From Candidatus Peregrinibacteria bacterium RIFOXYB2_FULL_33_20 (GTDB lineage: Bacteria; Patescibacteriota; Gracilibacteria; UBA1369; GWF2-33-10): a stretch of DNA of 58,354 bases. Location: the NCBI GenBank assembly GCA_001788835.1, contig MFXK01000011.1, forward strand, positions 1-58,354, read 5' to 3'. Below are positions 1 to 29,582 of this stretch, in pieces (positions within the stretch are counted from its first letter, which is position 1; each line of letters begins with the position of its first letter). Under the pieces are notes generated by a model. That model was not told where the DNA came from. It ran no database searches and was given only the letters and a program-made list of their open reading frames with translations. Made by a program: the position numbers and the translations under genes.

Positions 1-146
1 CTGGATATTATAAATTTGTACACTATTGAAGTTAGTCCTCTACTGGATTCCTGCCTTCGCAGGAATGACTGCTGACGATAAATTAAAATTTCTTCAAACC
101 ATTTTATCTTTGATCCATCAAAAGCTTTTTCTAATTTTTTCAACAT
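1..146 (-). CDS. Partial ORF at window edge, unknown product
   Basis: An ATG at 146 opens a reading frame of 48 codons that is still open at base 1, so the gene, if real, continues outside the window. The product begins MLKKLEKAFDGSKIKWFEEI and is lysine/glutamate rich. Residues about 26-35 (QSFLRRQESS) are encoded by the palindromic element at 47-69, so the coding sequence carries that repeat or is broken by it. It lies downstream of guaA on the same strand, with a 20-bp palindrome just upstream of the start. I do not recognise the family. Short length and the repeat keep confidence low. Confidence 0.3.
   Translation of the reverse strand, partial: MLKKLEKAFDGSKIKWFEEILIYRQQSFLRRQESSRGLTSIVYKFIIS
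47..69. repeat. Short palindromic element, copy 1
   Basis: The core ATTCCTGCCTTCGCAGGAAT followed by GAC can form a hairpin (ATTCCTGC/GCAGGAAT). The same core recurs at 1334-1356, and variants occur at 927-949 and 29480-29502. Here it is read on the minus strand as SFLRRQES within the edge ORF. Confidence 0.85.
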
Positions 147-154
147 TTTAAATT

Positions 155-186
155 ATATAGGTAATTACCTATATTTTACCTATATC
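155..186. promoter_or_regulatory. 20-bp perfect palindrome with adjacent half-site
   Basis: ATATAGGTAATTACCTATAT at 155-174 is a perfect dyad. It is followed directly by a second TTTACCTATAT half-site. It lies 9 bases upstream of the ATG of the edge ORF, in the gap between guaA and that ORF. Position and symmetry suggest an operator for a dimeric repressor controlling the edge gene (inference). A second, weaker TGTAATTACA dyad follows near 200-210. Confidence 0.4.
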
Positions 187-247
187 GCAAGAAACAAGTG
201 TAATTACATCTATTTTACACTCATTTTACGCCTTTGCTAAAACTATT

Positions 248-2212
248 TCATTCCCACTCAATCGTAGCAGGTGGTTTATTGGTAATGTCATAAAAGACTG
301 CGGATATTTCTTTGTCTTTCATAATTTCTTTTGCTAATTCACGAACTTGTTCCATTGGCAATTGTGCAAAATTGGCTGTCATGGCTTCTTCCGAACAAAC
401 TGGACGAAGAATAATAGATTCGTTACCTTGATTAAATTTTTTTCTTCCTCGTATTAAAGCAAATCCATCTTTTAAATCAAATGCTGGATTATCTATCGCT
501 AGAGGCACAAGCACAACTGGCATCTGCCAAACCCGTCCTTCGTTAGGCTTCGGAGGGTAAACCTGTCTAGACGTGTCCACTTTGTCTAGCCATTTCATTG
601 CAATTGAATCTGCTTCTTGCAAACACTGAATACGATCTGAACTTAAAACTCCTTTTACTGGTAATGCATTATTTAAATTATTCGGACTGATTAAATATAA
701 AACTCTATTTATTTCTGAAAATTTATTTGTAATTGCTGGTGAAAGTTCAGCAAGTTTTTGAAAATCTTTTGCATCTCCAATTAAAACCACCGGCTTTTTA
801 TAAGTACGAAAATCTCCTTGAACTCCAACAGATTTGATAGGCAGTACTTTTGCCTTAAAATTTGTATTAGCTAAAAAATTATTTATTTCATCGTTTAAAT
901 TTTTAAAATTTATCGAGTTTTTTAAGATTCCTGTTTGCACAGGAATGACAGTCGAATTACACAAAATCCTCACTCCAAGTCCAGGACCAGGAAAAGGATG
1001 TCTGGAAATTAATTTGGAAGGCAAGCCCAAAGCAAGACCAACTTCCCTCACCTCATCTTTATACAAATCCTTAATTGGTTCTATCAGAAGTCCCTGCTTA
1101 ATCAAATCTTCAATTTCAGGAACTCTATTATGGTGAGTTTTGATTTTATGTGAATTTTTTGTTCCTCCTGATTCAATAGTGTCTGGATAAATTGTACCTT
1201 GACCAAGTAGCCAATTTTCTGGATTTAAATTTAATGATTTTGCAATTTCCGCCTGAACTTCCAAAAAACATGCACCAATAATTTGTCTTTTTTGTTCTGG
1301 CTCTGTAACAGCGAAATCCCCATGACCTTTAAGATTCCTGCCTTCGCAGGAATGACAAAGGGCTTTCAAAAAATATTCTTTTGCATCCCAAACATTTATT
1401 GCAATTCCTGCATTTTCTAACATTTCTTTCACTTCTTCAGCTTCGTTTTTCCTCATAAGTCCAGTATCAATCAAATAACCAATTACTCGTTTTTGTCCCA
1501 AGGCTTTCACCAACAAACTATATGCAACGCTACTATCAACCCCACCACTAATCAACATAAACACATTTCTATCTCCAACCTGCTTTTTAATATCTTCAAC
1601 AATTTTTTCAATAAAACTTTGCTTATTCCAGTCTCTTTTTGCTCCAGTTAAATCAATAAAATTATTTAAAATTTGCATTCCTTTTTCGCTATGCACAACC
1701 TCAGGATGAAATTGTATGCCGTAAAAATTCTTTTTCAAATCAGCCACAACCGAATATGGATCATCTTTGGAAGATGCCAAAATTTCAAAATTGTCTGCTA
1801 ATTTTGTAACTTTGTCATTATGACTCATCCATACAACAGTTTTTTCATTTTTTTTAAATTTTTTTAAAATTCCCTCTGGCTTCAAAATTTCCATTTCAGC
1901 CTTGCCAAATTCAGCGCCAATAAAATCTCCTTTTTCAACAGTTCCGCCTAAAAGATGTGTTATTAATTGATGGCCATAACAAATGCCCAAAATTGGGAGG
2001 CCTAATTCAAAAATTCTTTTGTCTAGACTTGGAGACCCCTCTTCATACACTGATTCTGGCCCTCCTGATAAAATTATTCCTTTATATTCTTTCAACTTTT
2101 CAAGCAAGATATTATTATCCAGAATTTCACTATAAACGTTCAAATTCCTAATTCGTCTGGCAATCAAATGAGCATACTGGCTTCCGAAGTCAATAATGGC
2201 GATTTTGTGCAT
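248..2212 (-). CDS. guaA: GMP synthase (glutamine-hydrolysing), long form
   Basis: Converts XMP to GMP using ATP and glutamine. The class I glutamine amidotransferase domain comes first (about residues 1-195), with the nucleophile Cys in GICYGHQL and His in FHPEVVHSE. The ATP pyrophosphatase domain follows, with P-loop SGGVDSS near residue 224, and the C-terminus ends in the family signature KPPATIEWE. At 654 residues it is far longer than the usual bacterial enzyme (about 515-525). After SVGVQGDFRTY it has an extra region with QMPVVLVPL, resembling the dimerisation insert of the long, human-type enzyme. Two segments (about 294-303 CHSCEGRNLK and about 423-431) are encoded by palindromic repeats inserted in frame in loops. 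No Shine-Dalgarno precedes the ATG. Confidence 0.97.
   Translation of the reverse strand: MHKIAIIDFGSQYAHLIARRIRNLNVYSEILDNNILLEKLKEYKGIILSGGPESVYEEGSPSLDKRIFELGLPILGICYGHQLITHLLGGTVEKGDFIGAEFGKAEMEILKPEGILKKFKKNEKTVVWMSHNDKVTKLADNFEILASSKDDPYSVVADLKKNFYGIQFHPEVVHSEKGMQILNNFIDLTGAKRDWNKQSFIEKIVEDIKKQVGDRNVFMLISGGVDSSVAYSLLVKALGQKRVIGYLIDTGLMRKNEAEEVKEMLENAGIAINVWDAKEYFLKALCHSCEGRNLKGHGDFAVTEPEQKRQIIGACFLEVQAEIAKSLNLNPENWLLGQGTIYPDTIESGGTKNSHKIKTHHNRVPEIEDLIKQGLLIEPIKDLYKDEVREVGLALGLPSKLISRHPFPGPGLGVRILCNSTVIPVQTGILKNSINFKNLNDEINNFLANTNFKAKVLPIKSVGVQGDFRTYKKPVVLIGDAKDFQKLAELSPAITNKFSEINRVLYLISPNNLNNALPVKGVLSSDRIQCLQEADSIAMKWLDKVDTSRQVYPPKPNEGRVWQMPVVLVPLAIDNPAFDLKDGFALIRGRKKFNQGNESIILRPVCSEEAMTANFAQLPMEQVRELAKEIMKDKEISAVFYDITNKPPATIEWE
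927..949. repeat. Short palindromic element, copy 2, inside guaA
   Basis: ATTCCTGTTTGCACAGGAAT plus GAC is a variant of the 47-69 element with a changed stem and loop. The stem still pairs (TTCCTGT/ACAGGAA). On the guaA strand it is read as VIPVQTGI, just after the conserved HPFPGPGLGVRIL stretch, at a point where ordinary GMP synthases have no such residues. Confidence 0.8.
1334..1356. repeat. Short palindromic element, copy 3, inside guaA
   Basis: Identical in its 23-base core to the copy at 47-69. On the guaA strand it is read as CHSCEGRN, between the conserved blocks ending FLKAL and starting TEPEQKRQIIG. This is a second reading frame of the element compared with copy 2. Confidence 0.85.
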
Positions 2213-29479: not shown

Positions 29480-29502
29480 GTCATTCCCGCCAAAGCGGGA
29501 AT
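29480..29502. repeat. Short palindromic element, copy 4, between atpB and atpE
   Basis: GTCATTCCCGCCAAAGCGGG followed by AAT is the element of 47-69 in the opposite orientation, with compensating stem changes (CCCGC/GCGGG). That covariation supports a selected or mechanistically required hairpin. It is followed by a partial second inverted arm around 29510-29545. Confidence 0.75.
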
Positions 29503-29582
29503 CTTAAGATTTATAAGCCTTTAAGATTCCAATTTTTGCGGGGATTACCCTTTAAATTTATTATTTTTTAATTTTCATTTTT

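Follow-up and report, generated by a model that had tools for sequence, protein, structure and literature searches.

REPs of the CGTC-1 family, which includes Neisseria dRS3 and R. conorii RPE-6, are the closest described relatives of the palindrome analysed in this study; intragenic copies of CGTC-1 REPs are on record, and an associated transposase has not been reported for CGTC REPs (Di Nocera et al. 2013, PMC3733652). Double REP insertions have been published for R. conorii uvrB. Two further systems are similar in part: (i) the Rickettsia palindromic elements (RPEs), which lie in frame in conserved genes, at times several per gene, and (ii) the REPIN/RAYT system of GTAG REPs, with inverted hairpin pairs, a variable spacer and a nuclease gene bounded by its own hairpins.

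The palindrome described here was found in a window of 58,354 nucleotides (the whole stretch of DNA that was analysed) from Candidatus Peregrinibacteria bacterium RIFOXYB2_FULL_33_20. It has in common with the CGTC-1 REPs a GTC tag after T or C (the CGTC/TGTC tag by which that family is recognized), an 8-bp stem starting with AT, a 4-nt loop, inverted dimers, intragenic copies and the absence of RAYT, and it fits a CGTC-1-type REP of the same family as dRS3 and RPE-6. It differs in its host, whose phylum lies outside the five phyla of PMC3733652, in the tail of one of its two classes (mostly CTT in class B, mostly CCA in CGTC-1 REPs), and in the GIY-YIG nuclease gene that we propose as associate of REPs described in PMC3733652 as being without a transposase.

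The likeness to RPEs lies in the in-frame position within conserved genes, but the host is another one and the 27-bp unit is read in five frames. NCBIfam RPE models gave zero matches to the (short) hairpin-encoded peptides, so that membership in the RPE protein domains was dropped. In contrast to REPIN/RAYT, the partner gene encodes a GIY-YIG protein rather than an HUH/Y1 transposase, and the tag is GTC rather than GTAG. The Y1 (HUH) transposase/RAYT domain PF01797 is absent from this genome (96% complete), and RAYT was therefore rejected as mobiliser. An Rfam search of the window detected one tRNA only.

Structure and classes of the hairpin

The genome-wide survey, a pattern search combined with a scan of the stretches around the matches, revealed 91 hairpins. 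In the 27-bp unit the GTC tag precedes an 8-bp stem with a 4-nt loop, and a short tail follows; the 8+4+8 layout was built into the form of the search. The first two stem pairs are A-T and T-A in all 91 hairpins, while pairs 3, 6 and 8 vary mostly as compensated changes; copies 2 and 4 of the window likewise show compensated changes in the stem, as had been proposed.

Two classes were distinguished by their tails: class A (37 hairpins) with ATCCAG, and class B (54 hairpins) mostly with ATCTT. The CCA(G) tail is thus present in 37/37 class A hairpins by definition of the class. The tag of class B is usually preceded by T (51/54), whereas class A has mixed bases at this position (12 T and 11 C of 37). 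Class B hairpins occur as singles or as inverted pairs of 66–69 bp with an unconserved spacer of 12–15 bp; 16 tag-outward pairs were counted, alongside many single copies; in CGTC-1 REPs inverted dimers predominate. The classes also differ in location, since 31/54 class B but 0/37 class A hairpins lie inside genes (p=6e-10), although two of class A reach into the final codons of an ORF. The loop of the second hairpin holds a nested repeat, the palindrome-like GGAGTTTACCCCATACTTCGATATGGGG, in two class B pairs (L050 near C13:76216 and L066 near C25:7928).

The window carries four palindromes, whose coordinates had been given correctly in the preliminary description. The exact core occurs twice, where 0.02 occurrences are expected by shuffling. 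The features are as follows:

1–116, minus strand: remnant end of a multi-copy GIY-YIG element/MITE, recognized by comparison with other copies
43–69, minus strand: class A (CCAG-tailed) REP hairpin, non-coding, with the same flanks at C8, C12, C14, C27 and others
248–2212, minus strand: guaA, glutamine-hydrolysing GMP synthase, an ORF of 654 aa (NCBIfam NF000848, E=2.9e-164; Pfam GATase and GMP_synt_C)
about 431–487: guaA insert NPAFDLKDGFALIRGRKKF, about 19 aa
533–562: guaA insert VYPPKPNEGR, about 10 aa
923–949, minus strand: class B REP hairpin in guaA (GTCATTCCTGTGCAAACAGGAATCTTA), peptide VIPVQTGIL
1330–1356, minus strand: class B REP hairpin in guaA (GTCATTCCTGCGAAGGCAGGAATCTTA), peptide CHSCEGRNL
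29480–29548, plus strand: intergenic class B REP dimer, with an intact left hairpin (29480–29506) and a degenerate inverted partner (29522–29548)

The element at the contig start, which runs off the contig end, comprises an inner part (1–42), the hairpin (43–69) and an outer terminal inverted repeat (...TTGATCC) whose boundary we place by inference at about 116. The first copy had been regarded as coding, within an edge ORF read as SFLRRQES. This ORF was dropped as a gene because it belongs to the multi-copy repeat element, and, as hairpin 43–69 is an end of that element, SFLRRQES represents no protein insertion in the window; the same frame does occur in genes elsewhere in the genome, e.g. 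in Maf and NadC. The copy at 29480 had been located correctly but described incompletely, as it is one half of an intergenic dimer with a decayed partner.

Hairpins within guaA and other genes

Both guaA hairpins lie, in different frames, within one unbroken ORF, where the palindrome is read as HSCEGRNL and as VIPVQTGI, in agreement with the preliminary description. Relative to other GuaA proteins, the insert at hairpin 1330–1356 amounts to 14 aa (about 1316–1357) and that at 923–949, the last stem pair of which is compensated, to about 8 aa. In an alignment of 30 GuaA of the order, the 14-aa CHSCEGRNLKGHGD and VIPVQTGI stretches are unique to this protein, and about 29 relatives have empty sites at the same positions; one relative (G020) carries other extra residues near both of them. 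The best-matching solved GMP synthases are also without the two inserts. Judged from this alignment, the GuaA insertions are in frame and lineage-specific. The peptides could have turned up in other GuaA proteins, or the genome could have held no further copies; in fact they are absent from the former, and about 90 further copies are present in the latter.

Two more guaA inserts, those at 533–562 and about 431–487, are absent in relatives and have no REP resemblance. No second DNA copy of YPPKPNEG was found in the stretches around the hairpin copies, and its interpretation as a repeat copy was consequently dropped.

Genome-wide, guaA included, 37 class B hairpins fall in ORFs that are 100 aa or longer. 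After exclusion of N-terminal hairpins and of a single ORF lacking a Pfam match, 31 remain; these are located inside 22 genes that Pfam recognizes, one of them weakly. In this small genome the hairpin is inserted in frame into no fewer than 22 genes:

hairpin pair: phosphoglucose isomerase, glycosyltransferase, PrmC, PdxT
two hairpins: GuaA, DHFR, ATP-grasp protein
three hairpins: pyruvyl transferase
further genes with an in-gene hairpin: formiminotransferase, two Mur ligases, HisIE, HisA/F, HisH, Maf, WecG, O-antigen ligase, UvrC, Sua5, NadC, DUF167 protein, weakly matched acyltransferase

The presence of two copies in one gene, which had been singled out for guaA, is thus not unique. Empty sites were observed in relatives for hisA/F, maf, DHFR (two sites), prmC and pdxT, and one is likely for hisH; the hisIE insert is shared with the same-family genome G001. 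In-gene insertions of this type are a known kind of event, and the parallel with RPEs drawn previously stands as regards the in-frame, lineage-specific inserts and the RPE-6 family, but not for the edge copy, which is not coding. The preliminary description recognized neither the division into two classes nor the connection with GIY-YIG.

The element had further been described as open in all three frames of one strand. This is true but incomplete, since five of its six frames are stop-free. All five are used by the 37 hairpins (s0 8, s1 3, s2 8, a0 8, a1 10), and the sixth (a2), which carries TGA, is used in 0/37. A hairpin open in five frames survives in both orientations, hence the two different peptides of GuaA. 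In-gene copies would persist if the total length of the insert preserves the frame and if the protein tolerates the added residues. In this way many conserved enzymes, probably essential ones, can acquire short peptides from a 27-bp hairpin and not be destroyed by it.

The assembly consists of 42 contigs, with class A repeats at a number of contig ends, which could raise the suspicion that the in-gene copies are artefacts of assembly or annotation. We give this explanation a negligible probability, because the ORFs are open through the hairpins and have Pfam domains around them, and because the hisIE insert recurs in G001 at the same site.

Several genes showed other peculiarities. UvrC (806 aa, L066:3923-6340), with its REP hairpin at aa 706, has a GNAT acetyltransferase domain match at about aa 530–620, between the UvrC domains. 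An EPSP-synthase-family (MurA-like) ORF (L053:1554-3101) contains DUF559 (restriction-endonuclease-like) at aa 342–449, as if inserted, and the C-terminal NPPPTPPLQRRGEENLF of a TrpG-like protein (L085:928-1671) has the appearance of a further widespread repeat that is translated into protein.

The GIY-YIG unit and its REP ends

Class A hairpins bound an intact unit of 410 bp encoding a 95-aa protein, a predicted GIY-YIG nuclease by its match to PF01541 (E=1.6e-18), which extends across nearly the whole GIY-YIG domain. Units of about 184 bp have the same ends as the GIY-YIG unit but are without the gene; they were found at five places with unrelated flanks, the divergence starting at the GTC tags. 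The REP-bounded GIY-YIG unit and its derivatives therefore sit at several sites, and the ends retained by the 184-bp units suggest that a GIY-YIG-derived unit moved with the REP ends as its boundaries. No class B hairpin adjoining a GIY-YIG gene was seen in this genome. Most class A units lie within a longer element with the terminal inverted repeats GGATCAAGCGG...TTTGAAG (L054 C16:15300-16500, L043 C10:8900-10200).

We consider it probable, on the strength of these sequence comparisons, that the in-gene REPs are tolerated mobile hairpins and that the REP-bounded GIY-YIG nuclease is their mobiliser. The hairpin would spread as a tiny mobile unit, singly or in an inverted pair. The candidate mobiliser, a small nuclease encoded between hairpins of the same kind with tags outward, would recognise the hairpin and likely cut it at the tag or at the hairpin base, after which the hairpin would be copied into new sites. 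Class B may be moved in trans by the same GIY-YIG enzyme, or by a lost relative. It counts against such a role that GIY-YIG enzymes are nucleases for which, to our knowledge, no integration step is known, and that comparison of one genome per species revealed no recent movement.

Co-occurrence of REPs and the GIY-YIG gene in many phyla

When named genomes were scanned with an alignment of the 95-aa GIY-YIG protein, 80 loci from many phyla were obtained, those most similar to the query. Around these loci, the density of perfect GTC-tagged hairpins up to 300 bp from the gene is 28 times that found at distances above 1 kb. A hairpin lies within 150 bp of 33/80 GIY-YIG loci (41%) vs 18/276 control ORFs of the same loci (6.5%), and tag-outward hairpins on both sides were observed in 14/80 vs 0/276 (p=3e-10). 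The orientation of the hairpins at the GIY-YIG loci is biased (41:10, p=1.5e-5), and the left and right stems within a cassette match in 84% vs 54% after shuffling (p=5e-5). For an additional set of loci, taken from the host's phylum as a replicate, 17/24 GIY-YIG genes are flanked by hairpins, 10/24 on both sides and tag-outward.

Such proximity could also arise if the hairpins were ordinary regulatory or terminator-like REPs and if REPs in general preferred intergenic gaps beside small genes, and published REPs are indeed mostly intergenic and near gene ends. We judge this explanation to be quite improbable: the control ORFs of the same loci carry hairpins far less often, and never on both sides with tags outward, while class B hairpins lie inside genes in both orientations.

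Individual genomes illustrate the association. In Azospirillum lipoferum the GIY-YIG cassette separates sufB from sufC and has a REP pair at either end, and REPs are present at the GIY-YIG gene of N. gonorrhoeae, Sinorhizobium meliloti and Shinella. In Sphingobium and Novosphingobium, GTC-tagged hairpins of another stem sequence were identified by eye on both sides. In Planktothrix and R. tumorigenes the standard hairpin is absent at the GIY-YIG gene.

Among 380 genomes of the phylum, compared as one genome per species, 76 have both REPs and the GIY-YIG gene, 19 REPs only, 27 the gene only and 258 neither (odds ratio 38). Correction for descent was made at the family level only, where the corresponding numbers are 45, 7, 11 and 90 (p=7e-21). 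Of the 45 genomes of the phylum that carry five or more REPs, 5 are without the GIY-YIG subfamily, and G061, of the same order, has 30 REP matches and GIY-YIG proteins of other types only, which makes it a possible exception to the partnership.

The main rival explanation regards the GIY-YIG gene as a homing parasite that enters pre-existing REP pairs, the REPs themselves being spread otherwise (by replication slippage or an extinct transposase). Homing endonucleases exploit pre-existing sites, inverted REP pairs without the gene are common, and the REP-rich genomes lacking the subfamily would also be accounted for. This course of events nevertheless seems rather unlikely to us, since 45 of the 52 REP-bearing families have the gene, and the 184-bp units, with their preserved GIY-YIG unit ends, point to movement of a GIY-YIG-derived unit with the REP ends as boundaries.

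We retain the nuclease as candidate mobiliser and lean, with confidence a little above even, towards a wider proposal: that CGTC REPs across bacteria, including dRS3 and RPE-6, derive as non-autonomous forms from a widespread GIY-YIG cassette (nuclease gene and tag-outward hairpins), the enzyme of which mobilises hairpins in cis and in trans. A literature search within open-access papers, its scope excluding subscription papers and preprints, found no report of a link between GIY-YIG and REPs, and the GIY-YIG partnership of CGTC REPs appears to be new. The enzyme may be the long-missing spreader of this hairpin family; a hairpin-bounded nuclease gene in many phyla, co-occurring with the REPs genome by genome, offers a definite candidate for laboratory tests.

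Finally, the frame upstream of a GIY-YIG gene of G023 (L134:1423-1776) encodes DCHCEQSEAIS, which is similar to the peptide of a different common repeat, so that the nuclease may have partners in further repeat families as well.
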